64,000 bases of DNA from Caulobacter sp. 602-2 (lineage in GTDB: Bacteria; Pseudomonadota; Alphaproteobacteria; Caulobacterales; Caulobacteraceae). Positions 4,077-64,000 of the stretch are shown here, piece after piece; the stretch's first letter is position 1; the number at the start of each line of letters is the position of its first letter. The notes under the pieces were generated by a model, which did not search any database, was not told the DNA's origin, and saw only the letters and a list, made by a program, of their open reading frames with translations. A program made the position numbers and the translations under genes. Where the stretch lies: the NCBI RefSeq assembly GCF_011043625.1, contig NZ_JAAKGT010000007.1, positions 62,001-126,000 on the forward strand. Direction: 5' to 3'.

Positions 4077-6362
4077 ATGACGACCGCCGCCCAGCCTTCA
4101 TCCGCCCTGCGGATCCTGCGCCGGACCTCCGCCGCCGTGGCGCTGCTGGCCCTGCTGCCGGCCGCGAGCCTGGCCCAGACCATGCCGACCAAGGACAGCG
4201 CGCCGCTGGCCGCGCGGGCGAACGACCCGGTGTGGGCGCGCGCCGACGCGCTGGTCAGGCAGATGACCCTGGACGAGAAGATTACCTATCTGCACGGCCT
4301 GTTTCCGCCCAACACCAAGCCCGCGCCGGCCGACATGATCCCCTCGGCCGGCTACGTGCCGGGCGTGCCGCGCCTGAAGATCCCGACGCTGCGGGAAAGC
4401 GACGCCAGCCTCGGCGTCGCCAATCAGGTCGAGCAGCGCAAGGGCGACACCGCCACGGCCCTGCCGTCGGGCCTGGCGCTGGCCGCCACCTTCGAGCCGA
4501 AGCTGGCCTACGCGTCCGGCGCGATGATCGGCGCCGAAGCCCGCGCCAAGACCTTCAACGTCCTGCTGGCCGGGGGCGTCAACCTGACCCGCGACCCGTG
4601 GGCGGGCCGTAACTTCGAGTACCTGGGCGAAGATCCGCTGCTGGCCGGCGAGATGGCCGGGGCGTCGATCCGCGGCGTGCAGAGCAACCACATCGTCTCG
4701 ACCATCAAGCACTTCGCCATCAACGCGCAGGAGACGGGCCGCCACGTGATGGACGCCCGCATCGGCGAGGCCGACCTGCGGGAAAGCGATCTCCTGGCCT
4801 TCCAGATCGCCATCGAGAAGGGCCAGCCGGCCTCGGTGATGTGCGCCTACAACAAGATCAACGGCGACTGGGGCTGCGAGAACGACTTCCTGCTCAACAA
4901 GGTGCTCAAGCGCGACTGGAACTATCCGGGCTGGGTGATGTCGGACTGGGGCGCGGTGCACAGCACCACCAAGGCCGCCCTGGCGGGCCTGGACCAGCAG
5001 TCGGGCCAGGAGCTCGACAAGCAGATCTACTTCGGCGACGACCTGAAGGCCGCCGTGGCCAAGGGCGAGGTCAGCCAGGCGCGGGTCGACGACATGGTCC
5101 GCCGCATCCTCTACGGGGTGATCGCCACCGGCCTGATCGACAACCCGACCCCGGCCAGCGCCCAGCCGATCGATTACGTCGGCAACGCCAAGGTCGCCCA
5201 GAGCCTGGCCGAGCGCGGCGCGGTGCTGCTGAAGAACGACCGGGACCTGCTGCCGCTGGCCAAGAGCGCGAAGAAGATCGTGCTGGTCGGCGCCCATGCC
5301 GACGTCGGCGTTCTGTCGGGCGGTGGTTCGTCCCAGGTGCGTTCGGTCGGCGGCGCGCCGGTCGAGATCCCGCTGAACGGCGGCGAGGCGGCCTCGTTCG
5401 TGCGCGTCACCTGGCACGCCTCCTCGCCGCTGCAGGCGATCAAGGCGGCCTATCCGAACGCCCAGGTGTCCTATGTCGACGGCAAGGATCCGGCCGCCGC
5501 CGCCGCCGCTGCGCGCGACGCCGACCTCGCCATCGTCTTCGCCTGGCACTGGCAGACCGAGGCGCAAGATGCGCCCTCCATCGCCTTGCCCGAGAACCAG
5601 GACGCCCTGATCGACGCCGTCGCCAGCGCCAACAGGAACTCGCTGGTCGTACTTGAGACCGGCGGCCCGGTGCTGATGCCGTGGCTGGACCGGGTCGGCG
5701 GCGTGCTGCAGGCCTGGTATCCGGGTCAGCGCGGCGGCGAGGCCATCGCCGGCATCCTCAGCGGGGCGGTCAATCCGTCGGGCCGCCTGCCGATGACCTT
5801 CCCCAGGACCGAGGACCAGGCCCCGCGCGCCTCGGCGCCGGGCTATGCCGAGCAGGCCGCCATTGACGACGCCCGCCGCGCGGGCAAGGAGGCCGGGCCG
5901 ATCAAGGGCTTCCCGGTCGACTACACGGAAGGCGCGGCTGTCGGCTATCGCTGGTTCGCCCAACAGAAGCTGCAGCCGCTCTATCCGTTCGGCTACGGCC
6001 TGTCCTACACGAGCTTCGGCTACCGGAACCTCAAGGTCGAGGACGGCGACGGGCTGAAGGTCAGCTTCGACGTCACCAACACCGGCAAGGTGGCCGGCGC
6101 CGACGCGCCGCAGCTGTACGTCACCGCCGGCAAGCGCAAGTCGATGGTTCGCCTGGCCGGTTTCCAGAAGGTCGACCTGCAGCCGGGCGAGACCAAGCGG
6201 GTCACCCTCAGCGTCGACCCGCGCGTGCTGGCCGACTACGACACGGCCAAGCCCGGTTGGACCCTGCCGGCCGGTTCGTACCCGCTGTATGTCGGCGCCC
6301 ACGCCGGCGATCCGGCCCTGACCGGTTCGGCCAAGCTGAAGGCCTGGAGCCGCAAGCCGTGA
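4077..6362 (+). CDS. GH3 beta-glucosidase, exported
   Basis: 761 aa, typical of BglX-like GH3 enzymes. A signal peptide (residues 1-33, ending AASLAQ) points to the periplasm. The N-terminal barrel carries KHFAINAQETGRH and the nucleophile motif VMSDWGA with Asp290. The middle alpha/beta sandwich and a C-terminal fibronectin-III-like domain (about residues 640-750) complete the family layout. It should remove terminal non-reducing beta-linked glucose (or xylose) from oligosaccharides. Its stop codon overlaps the start of the GH30 gene (TGATG), indicating translational coupling. Substrate linkage cannot be read from sequence. Confidence 0.93.
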   Translation: MTTAAQPSSALRILRRTSAAVALLALLPAASLAQTMPTKDSAPLAARANDPVWARADALVRQMTLDEKITYLHGLFPPNTKPAPADMIPSAGYVPGVPRLKIPTLRESDASLGVANQVEQRKGDTATALPSGLALAATFEPKLAYASGAMIGAEARAKTFNVLLAGGVNLTRDPWAGRNFEYLGEDPLLAGEMAGASIRGVQSNHIVSTIKHFAINAQETGRHVMDARIGEADLRESDLLAFQIAIEKGQPASVMCAYNKINGDWGCENDFLLNKVLKRDWNYPGWVMSDWGAVHSTTKAALAGLDQQSGQELDKQIYFGDDLKAAVAKGEVSQARVDDMVRRILYGVIATGLIDNPTPASAQPIDYVGNAKVAQSLAERGAVLLKNDRDLLPLAKSAKKIVLVGAHADVGVLSGGGSSQVRSVGGAPVEIPLNGGEAASFVRVTWHASSPLQAIKAAYPNAQVSYVDGKDPAAAAAAARDADLAIVFAWHWQTEAQDAPSIALPENQDALIDAVASANRNSLVVLETGGPVLMPWLDRVGGVLQAWYPGQRGGEAIAGILSGAVNPSGRLPMTFPRTEDQAPRASAPGYAEQAAIDDARRAGKEAGPIKGFPVDYTEGAAVGYRWFAQQKLQPLYPFGYGLSYTSFGYRNLKVEDGDGLKVSFDVTNTGKVAGADAPQLYVTAGKRKSMVRLAGFQKVDLQPGETKRVTLSVDPRVLADYDTAKPGWTLPAGSYPLYVGAHAGDPALTGSAKLKAWSRKP

Positions 6363-54218: not shown

Positions 54219-55115
54219 TCAGCGCGGGCGCTTGTCGCCGCTCTCGGTCCAGAAGCGCCGCATCCGGTCGGCGACGTCGGCCGGCGGCGGATTTTTCCAG
54301 CCGGCGGCGCGGGCTTCGGGCGGCGGCCAGGCGCCGGTCAGCACCAGCCGGCGGGTCTCCTTGGCGTCGGGCGCGCCCGGAATGCGCCAGCCGGCGGCCT
54401 TCAGGCCGTCGAGCACGCGCGGGCGGGCCGCCTGCTCCTCGGGCTCGCCGGGACGCATGGGGCCGGACAGCACGGTTCCCACCGTCTCGCCGTTGCTTCC
54501 CACGGCCCAGGGATCGGCGCCCTTCTCCAGCAGCAGGTCGGCGATGCGGAAGTTCTGCTGCTCCACGGCCAGCCGCAGCGGCGTCGCGCCGGTGGCGTCG
54601 TGGTCGTTGATCCTGGCGCCATGCTGCAGGAGCAGCCGCACCGCGCCCAGCGAGTTGAGGCCGATCGCCGCCTTCAAGGGCCAGTAGGCCGCGCGCCGCT
54701 GCGGGCTGGCTCCGGCGGACAGCAGCTGCGTCGCCAATGCGGGGTCGGTGGCGCGCAGGGCCAGGCTCAGCGGAACGGCGTCGGCGGCGCCGTCGGGCGG
54801 GACGCCCAGATCGAGCAGGGCGCTCACCATCGGCTTGTCGCAGCGGGCGATGGCCAGGCTGAGCAGGTCGCCCCCCGGCCCGCCGCGCGTGGCCTTCAGG
54901 GCCGGATCGGCGCGCAGGCGGCGGCGCGCCTCGTCGACGTCGCCCTTCAGCACGGCGGCCATCAGGTCGCGTCCGGCCTGGCCGTGATCGGCGGCGGCCA
55001 AGGCCGAGCGGCTGTCGGGCAGGGCGGTTCCGCCCACGAAACACGAGGCGAGCGCGGCGTCCGTCATCATCACCATCGAAGCCGCCAGGGCGGCGATTGC
55101 TGCTGTGCGGGTCAC
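54219..55115 (-). CDS. Exported ankyrin-repeat protein, candidate lipase immunity
   Basis: 298 aa. A signal peptide (about 1-23, ending AALASC) sends it to the periplasm. About four ankyrin units follow (about 45-195), e.g. DLLSLAIARCDKPMVSALLD, GAVRLLLQHGARINDHDATG and TPLRLAVEQQNFRIADLLLE. Ankyrin proteins often serve as antitoxins for secreted toxins (known from polymorphic-toxin surveys). The GTG start lies 5 bases beyond the lipase stop with GAGG before it, so it is co-translated with the lipase. Immunity function is inferred from this context. Confidence 0.78.
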   Translation of the reverse strand: MTRTAAIAALAASMVMMTDAALASCFVGGTALPDSRSALAAADHGQAGRDLMAAVLKGDVDEARRRLRADPALKATRGGPGGDLLSLAIARCDKPMVSALLDLGVPPDGAADAVPLSLALRATDPALATQLLSAGASPQRRAAYWPLKAAIGLNSLGAVRLLLQHGARINDHDATGATPLRLAVEQQNFRIADLLLEKGADPWAVGSNGETVGTVLSGPMRPGEPEEQAARPRVLDGLKAAGWRIPGAPDAKETRRLVLTGAWPPPEARAAGWKNPPPADVADRMRRFWTESGDKRPR

Positions 55116-55120
55116 GAGCC

Positions 55121-56059
55121 TCAGTTGGCCGCCGCGCGGTAGGCCGCGTCAAGGCTGGACGACAGCCAGGCCTGGCCGTGCAGGTCGCCCAGCGAGGCGT
55201 CGCCCGCCGACTGGCCTTCGGGCCCGACCGGCGCCAGCACGTGGCGTTCGCCATAGGCCGGCGGCGCGTCGGCCAGCAGGCCGCCCAGGATCGCGCCGGG
55301 GATGCCGCCCAGCAGGCCGCCCAGGCCCGCGCCCAGCCAGCGGTCGCCGCCGTCCTGCACGCGGCTCAAGGGATCGCCGTCCAGATAGTAGGCGTCGACC
55401 TGCGGGGCGGCCGCGCCGCCGGCCCGGGCCGCCTCCAGCGTGTCCTCGTGCAGGCCCGCGGCGTTGAAGGTGTCGGCCGACAGGCCCGAGGCCACCGCCG
55501 CCGCCGAGGCCAGGCCCCCGCCCAGCGAGTGGCCGGTCAGGGTGACGTCCTCGCCCGCGGTGCGCAGGCGTTCGCCGATCACCAGCGCCTTGTCGTAGTG
55601 GCCGGAGTCCAGCCCCAGGCCCTGCTGGAAGTTGTTACGCCAGTCCTCGGCGTTCTGGCTGCCGCGGAAGGCCACGACATAGTCGCCCTGGGCGTCGACA
55701 TAGACCCGGGCGCGGAAGCTTGAGCCCGGCTCTTCCAGGTCGGTGGCGTCCAGGCCCAGGCGGGCCAGGTCGTCGGCGCTCGCCACCTCCCAGCCCGGCG
55801 GCGGGTTGGGCGTGTCGTTGTAGACGTCGGCGGCCAGGGCCATGTGCACCCGGGCTTCGGCCAGTTCCGCGGACTTGCCGCCGCCCGCCGCCGCGGCCGA
55901 GATCCGCACCTCGGCCTGGGCCGTGGTGGCGACCGCCGGCCGCGAGGCGGGCGCGTCCCATTCGGCCGCCACCCGGGCGTCGACGGCGACCCGCGCGCCG
56001 GCGCTGCTGTCGAAGCGCTCGCTCGTCGCGCTGATCCCCGATCCGCCATCGATGCGCAT
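55121..56059 (-). CDS. Class 3-like lipase, candidate secreted toxin
   Basis: 312 aa with no Sec signal; the N-terminus is Ser/Gly/Ala rich (RIDGGSGISATSERFDSS). The alpha/beta-hydrolase core (about 90-250) has VAFRGSQNAEDWRNNF before the nucleophile elbow TGHSLGGG (Ser178), the DUF2974/lipase-3 pattern. A hydrophobic Gly-rich helix LGGLLGGIPGAILGGLL (about 250-267) and a C-terminal HGQAWLSS (candidate catalytic His) follow. It probably attacks phospholipids. Partner ankyrin gene is 5 bases downstream. A CTAGGGA box lies 61 bases upstream of the start. Confidence 0.8.
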   Translation of the reverse strand: MRIDGGSGISATSERFDSSAGARVAVDARVAAEWDAPASRPAVATTAQAEVRISAAAAGGGKSAELAEARVHMALAADVYNDTPNPPPGWEVASADDLARLGLDATDLEEPGSSFRARVYVDAQGDYVVAFRGSQNAEDWRNNFQQGLGLDSGHYDKALVIGERLRTAGEDVTLTGHSLGGGLASAAAVASGLSADTFNAAGLHEDTLEAARAGGAAAPQVDAYYLDGDPLSRVQDGGDRWLGAGLGGLLGGIPGAILGGLLADAPPAYGERHVLAPVGPEGQSAGDASLGDLHGQAWLSSSLDAAYRAAAN

Positions 56060-56120: not shown

Positions 56121-56141
56121 GATAGTTGGGGAATTCCCTAG
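56121..56141 (-). promoter_or_regulatory. CTAGGGA box, lipase copy
   Basis: On the minus strand: CTAGGGA-ATTC-CCCAAC-TATC. It matches the two boxes at 60365-60406 at the consensus CTAGGGA N3 Y CC Y A R Y TAT S. Its proximal end is 61 bases from the lipase start codon. The last four bases could be part of a -10 element. Confidence 0.6.
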
Positions 56142-56177
56142 TGCGGTGGGGGCAGGATCTACGGCGCCCAACACCAA

Positions 56178-56317
56178 ATCCCGTCATTCCCGCCCTTGTG
56201 GCGGGAACCCCTCTCTCGGCCGCAAGTACGGATGGGGCGGCGTGCTCAGCACGCTGCTTGCGCTGCCCTTGCGAGCGGAACCAGGGTTTCCCGCCACAAG
56301 GGCGGGAATGACGGGAT
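56178..56317. repeat. Inverted repeat with 30-bp perfect arms
   Basis: The 30-base arm at 56178-56207 is exactly complemented at 56288-56317, and each arm contains an inner CCCGCC-N5-GGCGGG palindrome. The 80-base centre has no coding signal. It lies in the 269-base gap between the lipase and the convergent-side ArsR gene and may be a REP/MITE-like element and transcription end. Confidence 0.8.
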
Positions 56318-56328
56318 GGAAAATGGCC

Positions 56329-57033
56329 TCAGGCTGCGACGCGGCCGTCGTCGTCCAGGCCGACGCCGAGCAGGCCGCGCAAGGCGATCACGCCCTCGGC
56401 CGTCAGCCGCACGGCCCGTCCCTTGGCCTCCAGCGCCAGCCAGCCCCGCTCGCGCATCGCCGCCAGCAGCTTCACGCCCAGCGGCCCGGCCAGGTGATGC
56501 CGGCGCTCGGTCCAGTCGAGGCACTGGCGGGCGACGCCGCGCGGGGAGGCGAGGGTGGCGACCTCGATCCCCAGTTCGCCGAACCAGGCCCGGCCCTCGT
56601 CCGTCACCGCATAGCGCTTGTCGTCGGCCGGCGTGAGCAGCCCGCGCTCCACCAGGGCGTCGGCGACCTTCACGCCCAGCCGTCCGGCCAGATGGCCATA
56701 GCAGCAGCGGGCGTCGCGCAGGGCGCGAGCCTTGGGCGAGCGCGGAACCTCCAGCGACCGCACCGGGGCCGCGATCGCCGACAGCGCCTCGATGGCGTGC
56801 GCCACTTCGGCCGAAGCCAGGCGATAATAGCGGTGGCGACCCTCGCGCTCGACGCTGAGCAGGCCGCCCTCGACCAGCCTGGAGAGGTGGTTGCTGGCCG
56901 CCTGGGCCGTGACGCCCGCCGCCCAGGCCAGGGCCCCGGCCGGCTGGGCGCGGCCGTCCTGCAGCGCCTGCAGCATGGCGGCGCGGACCGGATCGCCGAT
57001 CAGGGCGGCGGGGCTGGCGATATTGGCGTCCAT
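56329..57033 (-). CDS. ArsR-type winged-helix regulator
   Basis: 234 aa, longer than minimal ArsR proteins. The N-terminal winged helix (about 5-80) is ArsR-like: ALIGDPVRAAMLQALQDGRA, TAQAASNHLSRLVEGGLLSVEREGRHRYYRL. The C-terminal part includes DARCCYGHLAGRLGVKV with a Cys-Cys pair and a His (possible metal or redox site) and a second helix-turn-helix-like region. It is divergent from an MFS gene 84 bases away and probably represses it. Confidence 0.86.
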   Translation of the reverse strand: MDANIASPAALIGDPVRAAMLQALQDGRAQPAGALAWAAGVTAQAASNHLSRLVEGGLLSVEREGRHRYYRLASAEVAHAIEALSAIAAPVRSLEVPRSPKARALRDARCCYGHLAGRLGVKVADALVERGLLTPADDKRYAVTDEGRAWFGELGIEVATLASPRGVARQCLDWTERRHHLAGPLGVKLLAAMRERGWLALEAKGRAVRLTAEGVIALRGLLGVGLDDDGRVAA

Positions 57034-57117
57034 GGCGCCACTCTACCCCGATCGTCGCCGCAATGGTTCATCGACGCATGTAGCATCCGGCGGCGCGGAC
57101 GGCGCATGACGAGGCCC

Positions 57118-58467
57118 ATGAGCACCCAGCCCTCCCGCCTGCCGCTGATCACGGCCGCCGCCAGCTTCGGCTTCCTGGTCACCCAGCTGGACGTCACCAT
57201 CGTCAATGTCGCCCTGGACGCGATCGGCGACGCGTTCGGCGCGCCCACCGCCCAGCTGCAGTGGGTGGTCGACGCCTATGTGCTGGCCCTGGCGGCCATG
57301 CTGCTGTCGGCCGGGGCGATCGGCGACCGGATCGGCCCCAAGCGGGCCCTCCTGGCGGGGCTGGTCCTGTTCGGCCTGGCCTCGGCGGCCTGCGGGTTCG
57401 CCACGGGGCCGCTGGGCCTGATCCTGGCCCGGGTCGCGCAGGGGGCGGCCGGGGCGCTGCTGATCCCGCCGTCCCTGGCCCTGATCGCCCACGCCGCCCA
57501 TGGCGACGATCGCCGGCGCGCGGCCGCGGTCGGCTGGTGGACCGCCGCCGGCGGGGTGTCGATCGCCGCCGGACCGGTTCTGGGCGGCCTGCTGGTCGAG
57601 ACCCTGGGCTGGCGCTGGGTGTTCTTCGTCAACCTGCCGCTCTGCGCGATCGGGGCGGTGCTGGCCCTGCTGGTCGCCCCGGCGACCCCGGCCAAGCCCA
57701 AGGTCCCGTTCGACCTGCCGGGGCAAGCCCTGGCGGTGGCCGCCGTCACCCTGCTGGTCGGCGGTCTGATCGAGGGCGGTCATCGCGGCTGGGGCGGCGC
57801 GCCATTGGCGGCCCTCGTCGCTGGCCTGATCTTGGCCTTGGCCTTCGTGGTGTTCGAGCGCCACGCCCGATATCCGGCCATGCCGCTCTCCGTCTTTCGC
57901 AGCCGCCCGGCCTGGAGCGCGGTGGTCGTCGGCTCGGCCCTGAACTTCACCTATTACGGCCTGATCTTCGTGCTCGGCCTCTACATGCTGCGCACCCTGC
58001 ACTGGTCGCCGGGCAAGGCGGGGCTGGCCTTCCTGCCGCTGACGGCCACCTTCATCGTCTCCAACCTGGCCAGCGGATCCCTGGTCGGACGCTTCGGCGT
58101 CCGGGCCGTCACCAGCGGCGGGGTGCTGATCGCCGCCTGCGGCTACGCCCTGACCGCGCGGCTGGGACCGGCCAGCGGCGTACTCGACATGCTGCCGGGC
58201 TTTGCTTTGATCCCCGGCGGCATGGGGCTGGCCATTCCGGCCCTGACCAGCGGCCTGCTGGCCAATGTCGACCGCCACGACGCCGGCGCGGCCTCGGGCG
58301 TGCTCAACGCCTGCCGCCAGGTGGGCGGCGCGGCCGGGGTGGCGATCTTCGGAGCGCTGGCCGGGGCGGGGATCGCCACGGGCCTGCGGGCATCGGCGAT
58401 CGTGGCGACGACGATGCTGGTCGCGGCGGCCGGCGTGCTGCTGGCGCCGGGGCGCAGGGGGCGTTGA
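57118..58467 (+). CDS. MFS drug/metabolite exporter, DHA2-like
   Basis: 449 aa with about 14 membrane helices. LDVTIVNVALDAIG in helix 1, GDRIGPKRALLAGL after helix 2, VAQGAAGALLIPPSLALI and GWRWVFFVNLPL are typical of the DHA2 drug:proton antiporter branch. ATG at 57118 has GAGG 5 bases upstream; an alternative ATG at 57106 lacks this. Divergent from the ArsR-type gene, which presumably controls it. It interrupts the toxin-like gene group without an obvious functional tie. Confidence 0.87.
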   Translation: MSTQPSRLPLITAAASFGFLVTQLDVTIVNVALDAIGDAFGAPTAQLQWVVDAYVLALAAMLLSAGAIGDRIGPKRALLAGLVLFGLASAACGFATGPLGLILARVAQGAAGALLIPPSLALIAHAAHGDDRRRAAAVGWWTAAGGVSIAAGPVLGGLLVETLGWRWVFFVNLPLCAIGAVLALLVAPATPAKPKVPFDLPGQALAVAAVTLLVGGLIEGGHRGWGGAPLAALVAGLILALAFVVFERHARYPAMPLSVFRSRPAWSAVVVGSALNFTYYGLIFVLGLYMLRTLHWSPGKAGLAFLPLTATFIVSNLASGSLVGRFGVRAVTSGGVLIAACGYALTARLGPASGVLDMLPGFALIPGGMGLAIPALTSGLLANVDRHDAGAASGVLNACRQVGGAAGVAIFGALAGAGIATGLRASAIVATTMLVAAAGVLLAPGRRGR

Positions 58468-58818: not shown

Positions 58819-59139
58819 TTACGCCGCCGCGTAGTCGTACTTCAGGTCGAACGCGCCGTCCGACTTCAGCGAGAACACCGCCTTCGACCACGGCTCGTGG
58901 GCGCTCGATGCGGTCAGGCGGTGCAGGTTGCGCAGCGCCTTCGACACCGAATAGTCCAGCTTGCGCACGTCCAGGTCGGCCACGCCGCCGGCGGCCTTGG
59001 TGTAGTCGCCCGTCAGGCCCACCGAGCCGTCGATGACGTCGATGTTCAGGCGGATCTCCGACCAGGGCTCGGCCACGCTGCCGGCCAGGGCCTGGCCGAC
59101 GTGGCGGTAGATGCCTTCGGGGCTGTCGATGTCGGCCAT
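58819..59139 (-). CDS. YezG/DUF600-like immunity protein
   Basis: 106 aa, cytoplasmic, acidic. The layout (GIYRHVGQALAG, then EPWSEIRLNIDVIDG, then EPWSKAVFSLKSDGAFDLKYDY at the end) matches the YezG/DUF600 family. B. subtilis YezG is the antitoxin of the DNase toxin YeeF. It starts 30 bases after the DNase stop with GGAGGA before its ATG, so toxin and antitoxin are co-transcribed, the antitoxin second. Confidence 0.83.
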   Translation of the reverse strand: MADIDSPEGIYRHVGQALAGSVAEPWSEIRLNIDVIDGSVGLTGDYTKAAGGVADLDVRKLDYSVSKALRNLHRLTASSAHEPWSKAVFSLKSDGAFDLKYDYAAA

Positions 59140-59169: not shown

Positions 59170-60309
59170 CTAGTCGTTGAAGAAGGTGCGGGTCGAGGGC
59201 TTGCCGTCGATGACGTACTCCACCCTGAACGCGTCGGGCCGCTTGGAGGCGCCCTCGAACACCGCCTTGATGTCGACGTCGACCTGCTTGCCCTCCTTCA
59301 GGGCGGCGGCCCACTCGTTCTCCATCACCTTCCAGCCGCTCTTGTTCAGCGTGCCGTCCATGGCGTGGTAGTTTATCTGCTCGCCGGGGCCGTTGAAGAT
59401 CGCCGCGATCAGGTGGCCGCCCTCGTCGCCGTCGACCCCGTCCTTGATCCCGCCTTCCTGGCCCGCCTTGGTCTGCTGGTAGCCGTTGCGGTCGGCGTGC
59501 TTCAGGTCGAGCGTGCCGGTCACCTGCTCGACGCGGCCGCTGGCGTCGGTGGAATAGGTGTAGCGGCCGCTGACCACATAGTCGGTGTTGGGCGCCAGTT
59601 CGCCGTTCAGCTTGGCGTTCCAGCCGCCCTTGGCGCCTTGCTCCAGCTCGACGCGGGGGCGCACCGACAGGGCTTCGTCCAGCTTGCGGCTGGCGGTTTC
59701 CAGTGTCTGGCGGGCGCTGTCGGGCAGCTTGTCCAGCGGCAGGGCGTCGATCGCGCCCTTCAGCTTTTCCAGCGCCGGCTTGGCGGCGGCGGCGAAGGCG
59801 CTGTCGACCTTGGCGAGGTCCGCGGCCTTGCTCACCGTCTCGGCCCACTTGCCGAGCTTGCCCAGCTTGGCCGCGTCGCCGATGTAGGGAACCATGCTGA
59901 CGGCCGACAGGCCCGCGCCGAGGAAGTCGCCGCGGAACAGCGAGATCACCCCGTTGACGCCGTCCGAGATCGGCGTCGGGTCGAACAGGCCCGCCACGTC
60001 CAGCGCCATCTGGCCAAGGTCGAGGATCAGCTCCTGCTTCTGGGCGGCCGTGGCCGCGTCCATGTCGTCGGCCAGGCGCTTCTGGTCGGCGGGCGACAGG
60101 TCGGCCTCGATCTGCGCGCGCAGGCTCTGGGCCTTGGCCGGATCGGACTTGGCGATCTCGGAAAGCTGGCCGGCCAGTTCGCTGGTGTTCAGCTGGCCGC
60201 CGGTGCGGCTGGCCGCCAGCAGGCCGGAAGCCTCGGTGGAGACGCTGGCGGCGCTGGATGCGGCGCGACTGGAGGCCCCGATGGACTCGGCTGCGTTCAG
60301 ACCGGACAT
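59170..60309 (-). CDS. DNA/RNA non-specific endonuclease toxin, YeeF nuclease family
   Basis: 379 aa. The Ser/Ala-rich N-terminus has no Sec signal. The middle (about 135-175) is a hydrophobic pretoxin-like helix pair, VISLFRGDFLGAGLSAVSMV. The C-terminal nuclease (about 255-379) carries GDEGGHLIAAIFNGPGEQIN with His299, then MDGTLNKSGWKVMENEW and GASKRPDAFRVEYVIDG, the Endonuclea_NS_2 pattern of LXG/YeeF toxins. No LXG domain is present, as expected outside Firmicutes. The DUF600 partner follows directly. GGAGG lies 6 bases before ATG and a CTAGGGA box 55 bases upstream. Confidence 0.86.
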   Translation of the reverse strand: MSGLNAAESIGASSRAASSAASVSTEASGLLAASRTGGQLNTSELAGQLSEIAKSDPAKAQSLRAQIEADLSPADQKRLADDMDAATAAQKQELILDLGQMALDVAGLFDPTPISDGVNGVISLFRGDFLGAGLSAVSMVPYIGDAAKLGKLGKWAETVSKAADLAKVDSAFAAAAKPALEKLKGAIDALPLDKLPDSARQTLETASRKLDEALSVRPRVELEQGAKGGWNAKLNGELAPNTDYVVSGRYTYSTDASGRVEQVTGTLDLKHADRNGYQQTKAGQEGGIKDGVDGDEGGHLIAAIFNGPGEQINYHAMDGTLNKSGWKVMENEWAAALKEGKQVDVDIKAVFEGASKRPDAFRVEYVIDGKPSTRTFFND

Positions 60310-60364: not shown

Positions 60365-60385
60365 GATAGCTGGGAGCGTCCCTAG
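60365..60385 (-). promoter_or_regulatory. CTAGGGA box, DNase copy
   Basis: On the minus strand: CTAGGGA-CGCT-CCCAGC-TATC, identical to the lipase box at 16 of 21 positions. It ends 55 bases before the DNase start. AGCTATCGAC within it also looks like a Caulobacter -10 element, so the box may overlap the core promoter. Confidence 0.62.
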
Positions 60386-60406
60386 CTAGGGATAACCCTA
60401 GTTATG
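60386..60406 (+). promoter_or_regulatory. CTAGGGA box, LysM-protein copy
   Basis: On the plus strand: CTAGGGA-TAAC-CCTAGT-TATG. It abuts the DNase box with no gap, creating the 14-base palindrome TCCCTAGCTAGGGA (60379-60392). Its own CTAGGG-N4-CCCTAG is a perfect inverted repeat. It ends 59 bases before the LysM gene start. Confidence 0.6.
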
Positions 60407-60465: not shown

Positions 60466-62196
60466 ATGACCGCCGTGTCCCTCAACACCCAGTCATCCGT
60501 CTCAGGCTCCGGCGGTGGGCGCTCCGGCGACTATGTCGTCAAGAGCGGCGACACCCTGTCGGCCATCGCCGATCAGCACGGCGTTTCGCTGGACGCGCTG
60601 ATCCGCGCCAATCCGCAGATCACCAATCCCAACGTCATCCGGCCCGGCCAGGAGATCGCGCTGCCGGCCGGCGCGGCGGCCGAGCCGCGCAGCTACACCG
60701 TCGCGGCGGGCGACAATCTCTCCAGCATCGGCGCCGAGTTCGGCGTCTCCTGGCAGGCGATCGCCCAGGCCAACCGGCTGTCGAACCCCAACCTGATCAA
60801 TGTCGGCCAGGACCTGCTGATCCCCGGCGGAGGCGCTGCGGCGCGGCCGGCGCCGGCCACGACCGACGCGGTCCCGACTTCGCCCTCCACGAACGGCCAG
60901 GCCACGGGCGTGCTGCCCTCGACCCAGGGCATGAGCCAGGGCCAGAAGTACGAGCTCTATGCGGGCTACGTGAACGCTTACGGCGACGCCCAGGCCAAGG
61001 CCGACCTCGCCGCCGGCAAGCAGGTGATCCTGGGGCTGCGCACCGAGACCAGCCTGAACGCCAACGGCGGCAAGGGCGCCTATGACGACCGGATCGTGGT
61101 TCTGCAGAAGGGCGGCGAGGTCCGCGAGTTCGCCGCCAACACCGAGCCCTCGGCCCAGTACGACGGCCGCTATGGCTCCGACTTCAACGGCGACGGCCGC
61201 AAGGAGCTGGGCCGCATCGCCGAGGGCACGGTCACCTTCCAGAAGAGCACGAGCTCCAGCCTCGGAAACGTGCTGCGCCCGACCGAAAGCCACGCCATCC
61301 AGCGCGACACCAACCACGACGGCCGCATCGACGACAGCGACGCCAAGGGCAAGGGCGTCAGCACCGACAACTCGTTCCTCTTCCACGCCGGCGGCAATTC
61401 CAACACCGGCTCGGCCGGCTGCCAGACGCTGAAGCCCGGCGACTTCCAGGCGTTCTGGAACGGCCTGGGTGGCCAGAAGGCCTTCAACTACGTGCTCGTG
61501 AACGTCGACAGGCAGGGGCCGCCCGGCGGCGCGACCACCACGACGCAGACGCAAGGTTCGAGCGACGCCCGCATCGGCGCCCTGTCCGAGCAGTACGAGA
61601 CCGGCGGGCGCGGCCCGGGCACGGTGTCGAGCGGCGCGGGCGACCCCGGCGGCGTCTCGTACGGCACCTATCAGCTGGCGGGCAATCGCGGCCGGCCCCA
61701 GCAGTTCCTGGCCGCCGAGGGCCGCCAGTGGGCCGCCGAGTTCGGCGGCGCCTCGCCGGGCTCGGCCAGCTTCACCGCCACCTGGAAGGCCATCGCCGCC
61801 CGCGAGCCGGAAAAGTTCGAGGCCGCCCAGCACGACTACATCCAGCGCACCCACTACCAGGTGCAGCTCGACACGGTCAGCAGCGCCACGGGCCTGGACC
61901 TGTCGACCCGCTCGGCGGCGATCCGCGACGTGGTCTGGTCCACCTCGGTGCAGCACGGTCCGGAGACCGGCGCCATCGTCAAGGCGATGGCCAGGGTGGA
62001 AGGGCAGGGGCTGTCGCCCGCCGACGGCCAAGCCTACGACCGCGCCCTGATCAACGCGATCTACGACGAGCGCGGCAAGCGCAACGACGCGGGCCAGCTG
62101 GCCTATTTCACCAGCGCCTCGGCCGCCGTGCAGGTCTCGGTCGCCAACCGCTTCGCCAGCGAACGCCAGGACGCCCTGGCCATGCTGGGCCGATGA
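60466..62196 (+). CDS. LysM protein with two peptidoglycan-enzyme-like domains, candidate toxin
   Basis: 576 aa, no Sec signal. Two LysM repeats (about 21-68 and 75-121) bind peptidoglycan. A middle region (about 150-345) contains calcium-loop-like DFNGDGRKE and DTNHDGRIDDSD and ends in FHAGGNSNTGSAGCQTLKP, whose His...Ser-x-Gly-Cys recalls L,D-transpeptidase-type catalytic motifs. The last part (about 365-576) starts EQYETGGRGPGTVSS and DPGGVSYGTYQLA, seen in phage-tail/VgrG-associated lysozyme-like domains. AGGAG lies 8 bases before ATG. Divergent from the DNase gene; a lipoprotein gene follows. Confidence 0.8.
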   Translation: MTAVSLNTQSSVSGSGGGRSGDYVVKSGDTLSAIADQHGVSLDALIRANPQITNPNVIRPGQEIALPAGAAAEPRSYTVAAGDNLSSIGAEFGVSWQAIAQANRLSNPNLINVGQDLLIPGGGAAARPAPATTDAVPTSPSTNGQATGVLPSTQGMSQGQKYELYAGYVNAYGDAQAKADLAAGKQVILGLRTETSLNANGGKGAYDDRIVVLQKGGEVREFAANTEPSAQYDGRYGSDFNGDGRKELGRIAEGTVTFQKSTSSSLGNVLRPTESHAIQRDTNHDGRIDDSDAKGKGVSTDNSFLFHAGGNSNTGSAGCQTLKPGDFQAFWNGLGGQKAFNYVLVNVDRQGPPGGATTTTQTQGSSDARIGALSEQYETGGRGPGTVSSGAGDPGGVSYGTYQLAGNRGRPQQFLAAEGRQWAAEFGGASPGSASFTATWKAIAAREPEKFEAAQHDYIQRTHYQVQLDTVSSATGLDLSTRSAAIRDVVWSTSVQHGPETGAIVKAMARVEGQGLSPADGQAYDRALINAIYDERGKRNDAGQLAYFTSASAAVQVSVANRFASERQDALAMLGR

Positions 62197-62260: not shown

Positions 62261-62980
62261 ATGAAGTTTGCTCCCCCAACCCTCATCGCCCTCGCGCTGG
62301 CCGTTGCCGGTTGTGAGCGACCGGCGGCGGCCGATCCCCCCCTACCCATGGCCGCCGCCGGCACCGCACAGGGACCTGCGGGCAAGTATGTGATGAGCGG
62401 ACAGCGCCGGGGCGTGCTGACCCTGACCCCCAAGGGCGATCTCTGGCGCGTCAGCCTGTCGGGCGGCGCGCTTTCCGACGGCGCGGCGACCGCCGCCGAC
62501 TGCGAGCTCGAGGCCGAGGGGCCTTTGAGGAGCGGCCGCATCGAGGCCAGGGTCGTGCCCTTCGAAGGAACGAACATCAGCCTCGGCGCGGCCGACCTGG
62601 CGGCCCGCCCGGCCACGGCGCAGGTGATCCTCGATGCGGAGACGGCGAGCGTGAGCACCGACTTCCAGGGTTGCGGCGTCGGCGCCGACCTTTCCGGCCG
62701 CTATGTGCGCCAGGCGCCGGGCGCGATCTCGGAAGGCGACAGCGTCGCCGACCTGTCGTCGGCTCTGCCGGATGCGCAACTGACCATCCTGGACGGCTAT
62801 CCCTGGGCCCGGTTCGCGATCGAGCGTGGCGGCAAGCGCCTGGTCGTCGTGCAGTTCGACGGCGAGAACGAGGAACTGGCCGACGGCCGCAACAGCCAGC
62901 GCGCGATCGGCGCTAAGGTCGGTTGGAGCGCGCTGAAGCCGGCCCTGCGGGTCGTCAAGGTCGAGGGGGGCGCGTCATGA
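62261..62980 (+). CDS. Lipoprotein, candidate immunity to the LysM enzyme
   Basis: 239 aa. Lipoprotein signal with lipobox AVAGC (Cys18) from the ATG at 62261; a longer frame from 62219 would bury it. The remainder is a beta-rich, Cys-containing periplasmic domain with no family I can name. Periplasmic lipoproteins or exported proteins are the usual antitoxins of peptidoglycan-degrading toxins, and this gene follows such an enzyme by 64 bases. The immunity role is inference. It overlaps the next gene by 4 bases (ATGA). Confidence 0.72.
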   Translation: MKFAPPTLIALALAVAGCERPAAADPPLPMAAAGTAQGPAGKYVMSGQRRGVLTLTPKGDLWRVSLSGGALSDGAATAADCELEAEGPLRSGRIEARVVPFEGTNISLGAADLAARPATAQVILDAETASVSTDFQGCGVGADLSGRYVRQAPGAISEGDSVADLSSALPDAQLTILDGYPWARFAIERGGKRLVVVQFDGENEELADGRNSQRAIGAKVGWSALKPALRVVKVEGGAS

Positions 62981-63489
62981 TCCGTCCCGTCGAGCGCGCC
63001 TCGGGCGCCGACCTCTCCACCTGGACGCCGTCGACCACGGCCGCGCGGGCCGGAGTCGCGCGGCTGGCGATCGAGGCGATGGCCACCGTCGCCGGCGCGG
63101 CCCTGGTGGATCCGCTGCGCGGCGGCGATCGCGGCCAGGCCGCCGCCTTCGTCTGGGCCGAGCACGGCCAGTCGAGCATGGCCCAGGTGGGCGCGGACCT
63201 GCGGATCCTGGCGGCCCAGAGCGGCCAGTCGGTGGCCGGCCGGCTGTCGGCCACCTCGCCGGTCGACGCCGGCCGCATCGAGCGGGTGCTGGCCGACTTC
63301 GCCCGCGAACTGCGCGCCCAGGCCGCGGACAAGCCGCACCTGACGCCCTCGGCAATCGTCGAGCCGCTGCTGCGCTCGGTCGCCGCCGGCCTGCAGCGCG
63401 AGCCGGCCCCAGGCGCGGCGCGCTCGGACGTCGTCGAGCAGTTCGTGCGGATCATCGACGGCGCCACCGCCGAACTGAGGGCGGTCTAG
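62977..63489 (+). CDS. Hypothetical alpha-helical protein of the LysM operon
   Basis: 170 aa, Ala/Arg rich, predicted mostly helical, no signal or membrane segment. The N-terminus is IRPVERASGADLSTWTPSTT; the end is EQFVRIIDGATAELRAV. No known domain recognised. Start overlaps the lipoprotein stop (ATGA), so it is the third gene of the LysM operon. It could be a cytoplasmic adaptor or chaperone for export of the LysM enzyme, or a second antitoxin; no direct evidence. Confidence 0.7.
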   Translation: MIRPVERASGADLSTWTPSTTAARAGVARLAIEAMATVAGAALVDPLRGGDRGQAAAFVWAEHGQSSMAQVGADLRILAAQSGQSVAGRLSATSPVDAGRIERVLADFARELRAQAADKPHLTPSAIVEPLLRSVAAGLQREPAPGAARSDVVEQFVRIIDGATAELRAV

Positions 63490-63521
63490 GGGGGCGGATC
63501 ACCATCTCCGACCAACCACAT

Positions 63522-63636
63522 TGTCATCCCGGCCGCAGCGAAGCGGAGCGCCGGGATCTCCTACGGTTCCGATACTGCAGGTGTGGGAGATCCCGGCGCT
63601 GCGGACCGCTGGCGCGTTCCTCCGGCCGGGATGACA
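63522..63636. repeat. REP-like nested inverted repeat, copy 2
   Basis: Outer arms TGTCATCCCGGCCG (63522-63535) and complement (63623-63636) are identical to those of the element at 20058-20167. The inner GCCGGGATCTCC and GGAGATCCCGGC pair is also conserved, while the centre differs. It fills the gap between two convergent genes. Confidence 0.8.
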
Positions 63637-63674
63637 CGCGTTGGGGCGGGGGCCCTCTAGCCCTGCGCTCTTTG

Positions 63675-64000
63675 TCAGGACCCGCCGTCGTCGACGCGGG
63701 TCAGGTTGGCCAGGGCGGCGGCGGGGCGATCGAGCTTGTTGTGCACCGCCAGGGTAACGTCCATCCAGGCCTGGCCGCGCATCTGGCTCCACCACTCGTC
63801 GTGGACGGCGGCCTGGAAGTCGCCGTTGACCCGCTCCGAGCGGGTCTCGACCACGGGATCAGCCACAGTGTCGGCCGTATCTTCCACCACGCCTACGGTG
63901 TCGTCGACCACGCCGCCGACGCCGTCGAGCAGGCCGCCCAGCCCCTTGGCCAGCAGCGCGCCTTCCAGGGCGCCGCGCTGGGCGGGCGGCAGGCCCTCCA
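63675..64000 (-). CDS. C-terminal part of a second lipase-like protein (start outside window)
   Basis: The frame is open to the right edge; 107 codons plus stop are visible. The segment GLGGLLDGVGGVVDD followed some 40 residues later by RGQAWMDVTLAV parallels LGGLLGGIPGAILGG and HGQAWLSSSLDA at the C-terminus of the lipase at 55121-56059. This suggests a paralogous member of the same toxin group, but the catalytic core lies outside. Ends with an acidic tail (VDDGGS). No downstream partner gene follows on this strand before the repeat element. Confidence 0.62.
   Translation of the reverse strand, partial: EGLPPAQRGALEGALLAKGLGGLLDGVGGVVDDTVGVVEDTADTVADPVVETRSERVNGDFQAAVHDEWWSQMRGQAWMDVTLAVHNKLDRPAAALANLTRVDDGGS

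Follow-up and report, generated by a model that had tools for sequence, protein, structure and literature searches.

Known Systems and the Locus under Study

In Salmonella, the response regulator SsrB binds an 18-bp palindrome of 7-4-7 layout that lies before the operons of Salmonella pathogenicity island 2 (SPI-2) and before unlinked effector genes (PMC2837388). For CrbR, the site of action is an imperfect inverted repeat (-52 to -36) immediately preceding a sigma-70 promoter (PMC5715377). The DUF1521 domain is that of NopE-type proteins of the type III secretion system (T3SS) in Bradyrhizobium and Vibrio coralliilyticus, and earlier work briefly mentions T3SS genes in Caulobacterales (PMC12248157). 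Here we describe a computational analysis of a 64,000-nucleotide stretch of the genome of Caulobacter sp. 602-2 (contig C31, positions 62001-126000; the window below), in which a 21-bp box of the consensus CTAGGGA N3 Y CC Y A R Y TAT S precedes three toxin-like genes.

The best overall explanation of the box, to which we give a probability of about 0.7, is that it serves as operator for a T3SS effector regulon in plant-associated Caulobacter, a genus better known for its use as a model of the cell cycle. The open-licence literature that we searched contains no description of the regulation of the T3SS island or of its operator, which is weak evidence of absence, and two papers holding CTAGGG or CCCTAG describe no regulator with this operator.

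The Box and Its Palindromic Core

The first-pass annotation had placed the box before three genes, and all three copies match its consensus with 0 mismatches: one at 56121-56141 (minus strand), before a lipase-like gene, one at 60365-60385 (minus), before a nuclease gene, and one at 60386-60406 (plus), before a gene for a LysM/muramidase-like protein. They end 61, 55, and 59 bases before the respective start codons, and the last two abut exactly to form TCCCTAGCTAGGGA, both as first described. The lipase-gene box holds the palindrome CTAGGGAATTCCCCAA at 56126-56141, the nuclease-gene box the palindrome-like CTAGGGACGCTCCCAG at 60370-60385, which is the most degenerate of the three, and the LysM/muramidase-gene box the perfect palindrome CTAGGGATAACCCTAG at 60386-60401. 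All three boxes are conserved in relatives, and those of the lipase and LysM/muramidase genes match the relaxed core TRGGGWWWWCCCYAR exactly.

The density of the box exceeds chance, since the window contains 4 matches at up to three mismatches against a mean of 0.17 in dinucleotide-shuffled sequence at the same threshold, a count that none of 100 shuffles attains; the fourth match reads the lysM palindrome on the other strand. CTAG is itself as scarce as had been supposed (21 occurrences in the window versus 96 expected from trinucleotides). Across the whole genome (5,168,154 bases) the box is matched exactly at three sites, and no site has a single mismatch. Its 2-mismatch matches are the overlapping lysM reading and one new place, C31:127844-127864, within the T3SS cluster 1.8 kb past the right edge of the window. 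A reversed-pattern control gave 0 matches at up to one mismatch and 3 at two mismatches, so 2-mismatch matches alone mean little. The relaxed core has four exact sites in this genome, all within C31:118126-127863, a 10-kb stretch covering part of the island and its flank; allowing one mismatch adds C31:141771 (the promoter region of a two-component system), C31:146424 (that of a DUF1521 gene), and five places elsewhere.

Taking one site per promoter and genome yields a 16-bp palindrome, CTAGGG-N4-CCCYAR, with an A/T-rich centre. Its information content is about 24 bits against a background of 70% GC, enough to make it nearly unique in a 5-Mb genome, although this figure is somewhat optimistic because the sites were picked by eye as the best per promoter. 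In cross-genome comparison the palindromes are among the most conserved blocks of otherwise diverged intergenic DNA, and their symmetry suggests a dimer of a helix-turn-helix regulator. Thus the box first proposed as the shared unit is indeed shared, but its conserved part is the palindrome CTAGGG-N4-CCCTAG, and the TAT occurs only at some promoters: the YTAT tail is common to the lipase, nuclease, muramidase, and DUF1521 promoters and is missing from other box promoters. The proposal that TAT serves as a -10 element is not supported in that form, and a search 12-36 bp downstream of the palindrome found no convincing shared -10 (1 of 40 shuffles scored equally high).

The three original boxes are real, but there are more copies than three. 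A box had been predicted for the gene at the right edge of the window (160 aa; minus strand, 63675-64000, continuing to window-equivalent 64157), and one is present just outside the window: CTGGGGAAAACCCCAA, whose core (window-equivalent 64208-64222) lies 50 bp upstream of the start codon.

Described operators of other kinds were considered for the 36-kb island region. It contains no hrp box and one PIP-like site, which does not precede a box gene; a Hrp-box (HrpL) or PIP-box (HrpX) regulon was rejected because neither box is found where needed. LexA-controlled bacteriocins were also rejected, as this region has no alphaproteobacterial LexA box (GTTCN7GTTC).

The Type III Secretion Island

A non-flagellar T3SS island begins just right of the window edge. 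Its genes are ordered sctU, a fliO-like gene, a lytic transglycosylase gene (slt), sctV, sctC, sctD, sctJ, sctL, sctN, a histidine kinase gene, a FixJ/NarL-type response regulator gene, sctQ, sctR, sctS, sctT, and a DUF1521 gene. The assignment as a non-flagellar T3SS rests on its components. The T3SS-type secretin SctC passes the curated T3SS cut-off (TIGR02516, 403.6 bits versus 238.45), as does the inner ring lipoprotein SctJ its own (TIGR02544, 226.8 bits versus 161.95), and the gate proteins SctR, SctS, SctT, SctU, and SctV and the ATPase SctN have Pfam matches above cut-off; SctV lies just below its equivalog cut-off (686.6 versus 692.25). SctD has a Y4YQ C-terminal domain. Further boxes are found before the right-edge 160-aa gene, the adjoining 212-aa gene, and the DUF1521 gene, as well as at the gene pair divergent from the kinase gene, along with the kinase start itself.

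The histidine kinase (L007:6311-7381) is apparently soluble: it has HELNQP and ATP-binding motifs, and no membrane segment is obvious. The response regulator (L007:7378-8022) combines Response_reg and GerE domains and has an intact receiver (DVRMP, TGHGD, EKPF). Apart from this pair, no regulator was recognised in the conserved T3SS cluster, an orthologue of the response regulator occurs in every island whose assembly covers that part, and the box in the upstream region of the regulator itself suggests autoregulation. The best models and structures for the response regulator are those of FixJ (231.3 bits; PDB 5xso), and no NarL-type model comes near its cut-off. Its score falls short of the NF006900 equivalog cut-off of 255, so it is FixJ-like rather than FixJ proper; identity as an SsrB orthologue was rejected as well, because it groups nearer FixJ.

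Three further observations concern the island. The FliO-like gene lies directly downstream of sctU (L006:11826-12197, minus strand; window-equivalent 65826-66197; PF04347, 48.9 bits), and FliO in Caulobacterales T3SS operons has been mentioned before (PMC12248157). The box-controlled 212-aa protein (L006:11094-11732) and an 89-aa protein of the T3SS operon (L007:10-279) share a C-terminal domain (34% identity, E 9e-11) and are possibly needle or filament related. In C. hibisci (L153:11006-13016), the homologues of the 160-aa and 212-aa proteins are 41-49% identical versus 84-92% for neighbouring genes, as if they were diversifying or recombining secreted-protein candidates.

Distribution among Relatives

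Of 61 related genomes, six carry the box at up to one mismatch; all six belong to the same genus and are exactly the genomes with a T3SS sctR orthologue (at least 96%); other congeners have a flagellar-type copy only, or none. The relaxed core at 0 mismatches has sites in 12 of 12 island-bearing genomes, and nine island-free congeners hold two in total. The reversed core pattern is absent from all 21. Among the named carriers of the island are C. zeae, C. hibisci, C. radicis, and C. endophyticus; most of the names point to an association with plants.

Unlinked Genes Preceded by the Box

The expectation that the box would mark further toxin-like genes elsewhere was borne out in island-bearing relatives, where unlinked cores are oriented toward their gene and end 58-78 bp before its start. 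In C. endophyticus BI, a box precedes a TNT-domain toxin gene (PF14021, 2.3e-32) with a small overlapping partner gene, the product of which is a small, cytoplasmic-type protein. Other boxes precede genes for 297-aa and 589-aa proteins, both without Pfam matches; the 589-aa protein is found in exactly the two genomes that have its box, of 26 searched. A family of about 510 aa (p508) is present in five of the 12 island-bearing genomes and in none of 12 without the island, with a box in every case, and is paired with a lipoprotein gene in all five. A structure prediction for a 514-aa candidate effector was of low confidence (mean pLDDT 52), and this protein has no relative in viral contigs.

An unlinked box also precedes the gene of a DUF3060 signal-peptide protein. 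This box is conserved between divergent DUF3060 signal-peptide and M28 peptidase genes, far from the island (L127, L129, L132, and L139, about 4000). Distant DUF3060 homologues in the 602-2 genome and in island-free congeners have no box and are too diverged to serve as a test. In Caulobacter sp. UNC279MFTsu5.1 (L138:2305-3993), a perfect palindrome precedes the gene of a 533-aa signal-peptide protein (p533) with no Pfam match, found in that one genome only, at a distance similar to that of other unlinked members. Exact cores inside coding genes, which form three site families (G447 C48; G007 1580k and G449 C7; G449 C15), are probably due to chance.

Toxin-like Genes and Candidate Immunity Partners

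The lipase-like candidate effector (312 aa; 55121-56059, minus strand) matches PF01764 Lipase_3 with 24.4 bits against a cut-off of 22. Directly downstream is a gene for an ankyrin-repeat protein with a signal-peptide-like N-terminus (54219-55115, minus; PF12796), a candidate immunity partner of the lipase; the two genes adjoin in G005, G007, G010, G020, G444, and G445, and both are undetected at the C. hibisci locus. The nuclease gene encodes a DNA/RNA non-specific endonuclease (379 aa; 59170-60309, minus; PF13930, E 3.8e-33), also a candidate effector, and is followed by the gene of a YezG-like immunity protein (106 aa; 58819-59139, minus; PF04634, 26.6 bits versus a cut-off of 21.7), together with which it has been lost in G007. 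The third candidate effector (576 aa; 60466-62196, plus strand) joins LysM to a VgrG3-like, muramidase-like C-terminal region (PF21277, E 9.4e-56). Directly downstream lies a gene for a lipoprotein-like protein (62261-62980, plus), recognised from its sequence by the lipobox AVAGC, which is kept beside lysM in all island-bearing genomes examined and is a candidate immunity partner of the muramidase; its structure prediction was of low confidence (mean pLDDT 42). A gene for a conserved 170-aa protein (62977-63489, plus) overlaps the end of the lipoprotein gene and is probably in the same operon.

The nuclease and YezG, lipase and ankyrin, and p508 and lipoprotein genes are toxin-partner pairs gained and lost together. 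Only YezG belongs to a named immunity family, and a PADLOC search returned only ankyrin-repeat similarity; the partners are predicted to neutralise their toxins. The predicted location of each partner matches the target of its toxin, the cytoplasm for the nuclease and TNT toxins and the periplasm for the muramidase and lipase, which points to antagonism between bacteria. T3SS substrates often have Ser/Thr-rich N-termini, and those of the box genes contain 26% Ser/Thr versus 12.6% in neighbouring genes (p=4e-5, with two signal-peptide proteins excluded). Export of the box-gene proteins by this T3SS is likely.

Two kinds of intergenic repeat were also noticed. Similar elements, each about 150 bp long and with inverted ends (CATTCCCGCC...GGCGGGAATGACGGG), occur at 56175-56320, between the lipase box and an ArsR-family gene, and at L007 about 5100-5240, and appear to be a dispersed repeat. 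An inverted repeat of the ATCCCGGC...GCCGGGAT type is found at 63520-63645, just downstream of the 170-aa gene.

Proposed Regulation and Alternative Explanations

We propose that a dimeric regulator would bind CTAGGG-N4-CCCTAG, in most cases 48-78 bp upstream of the start codon, and so control the lipase, nuclease, muramidase, and NopE-like protein genes, the unlinked candidate effector genes, and parts of the T3SS cluster. The likeliest candidate for this regulator is the island FixJ/NarL-type response regulator, paired with its apparently soluble histidine kinase. That the island regulator binds the box we regard as somewhat favoured, and that it activates rather than represses as likely.

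Several observations weigh against this reading. The sctU and slt-sctV promoters have no box, and therefore the box would govern only part of the machine. The DUF3060 and p533 proteins have signal peptides and may be exported by Sec rather than by the T3SS. The carrier genomes form one clade and are thus not independent replicates, and no outgroup with the same wiring was found; in G414, another alphaproteobacterium with a related T3SS (SctV about 45%), 40 kb contain neither a response regulator counterpart nor the box, which leaves the evidence confined to the genus. Co-occurrence of the box with the response regulator does not single out the latter, because both travel in the same island.

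This confounding by linkage also speaks for a different regulator of the same T3SS effector regulon, a dimeric protein encoded outside the island that might act as a repressor until contact with a host or rival releases it. FixJ-like paralogues are numerous in each of these genomes, and a perfect palindrome would also suit other helix-turn-helix dimers. We nevertheless consider an outside regulator unlikely, given that the kinase-regulator pair is the sole regulator recognised in the conserved cluster, has a box in its own upstream region, and belongs to a class, FixJ/NarL, known to bind inverted repeats. A local candidate is the ArsR-family gene (56329-57033), which sits between the lipase and nuclease genes and the dimers of whose family bind inverted repeats. 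The first-pass annotation had treated the ArsR/MFS pair (56329-58467) as unrelated to a small regulon that spans it, and correctly so: the pair is present in G005, G444, and G445 and absent from the locus in G007, G010, and G020, which retain the boxes, and the promoter region of the ArsR gene has no box. The pair is therefore a variable insertion outside the system, and control of the flanking toxin genes by ArsR is largely refuted and extremely improbable. It is also very improbable that the box is a chance or non-regulatory repeat, such as a mobile-element end or structural palindrome. Palindromes can be element ends, and two of the sites do make a tight inverted pair, but the box keeps a fixed distance and orientation to the starts of unrelated genes, is conserved within diverged intergenic DNA with no repeat unit around it, and is absent from island-free congeners apart from the two core look-alikes in nine genomes.

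The target of the toxins is a separate matter. The regulon could be real and its toxins aimed at eukaryotes (plant, amoeba, or fungus), with partners that only shield the producer, a reading to which we give a little less than even odds. TNT toxins can act on host cells, the host species are mostly plant-associated by name, and NopE-type DUF1521 proteins are reported to act in legume symbiosis (PMC8367979). Set against this, the substrate of a muramidase lies in bacteria, although the enzyme may serve assembly of the T3SS machine itself, and partners of periplasmic type (the ankyrin protein with its signal peptide and two families of lipoproteins) fit toxins entering from outside. Delivery of the toxins into rival bacteria is possible and is offered tentatively, because immunity genes also protect producers of host-directed toxins. 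With greater reserve we suggest that this T3SS could deliver toxins with matching immunity genes (nuclease, lipase, muramidase, and TNT/NAD-glycohydrolase types) into competitors, the linked and unlinked arsenal being placed on one operator read by the island FixJ-like regulator.

Comparison with Known Systems

As an operator of a T3SS effector regulon, the box would provide a sequence tag by which T3SS effector candidates could be found throughout these genomes, even in families without a known domain, and the regulator-operator pair would become available for direct test in environmental strains.

The rhizobial T3SSs (TtsI and tts boxes, NopE) resemble this one in being alphaproteobacterial and in having a NopE-type DUF1521 protein and the Y4YQ C-terminal domain of SctD. 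They differ in being switched on via NodD and flavonoids through a different regulator, and no TtsI was recognised here, the tts box itself not having been searched for; moreover, toxin-immunity pairs form the bulk of the regulon in Caulobacter. Polymorphic toxin-immunity systems (PMC3482391) likewise include toxins of nuclease, TNT, and lipase/muramidase type whose genes lie next to immunity-like genes, the pairs being lost or gained together, but here the toxins share an operator with a T3SS island, and toxin-immunity modules are thereby tied to the T3SS, a route reported as apparently unused by the standard survey of polymorphic toxins. Myxococcus Kil, or needleless T3SS* (PMC12075869), also links a T3SS-derived apparatus to the killing of bacteria; that system has a Tad-like pilus with a needleless basal body, whereas the Caulobacter island has a full export apparatus and candidate rod or needle genes. 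The CrbS/CrbR system, with its ACTU motif, shares a LuxR-family response regulator, and the placement of its inverted repeat suits the spacing seen here, but it concerns acetate metabolism, has another sequence, and has no link to secretion.

Among the close parallels is also SsrA-SsrB of Salmonella SPI-2. In both cases a NarL/FixJ-class response regulator is encoded in a T3SS island, and a palindromic operator with a 4-bp spacer lies before island operons, before unlinked effector genes, and upstream of the regulator operon. The half-sites differ, being CTAGGG in a 6-4-6 arrangement here and degenerate 7-4-7 there, and in Caulobacter the response regulator is nearer FixJ, the kinase lacks an obvious membrane part, and binding is predicted. 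By analogy, the regulon would work like that of SsrB, with a response regulator that is not an SsrB orthologue, and it is a new instance of a familiar type of wiring.
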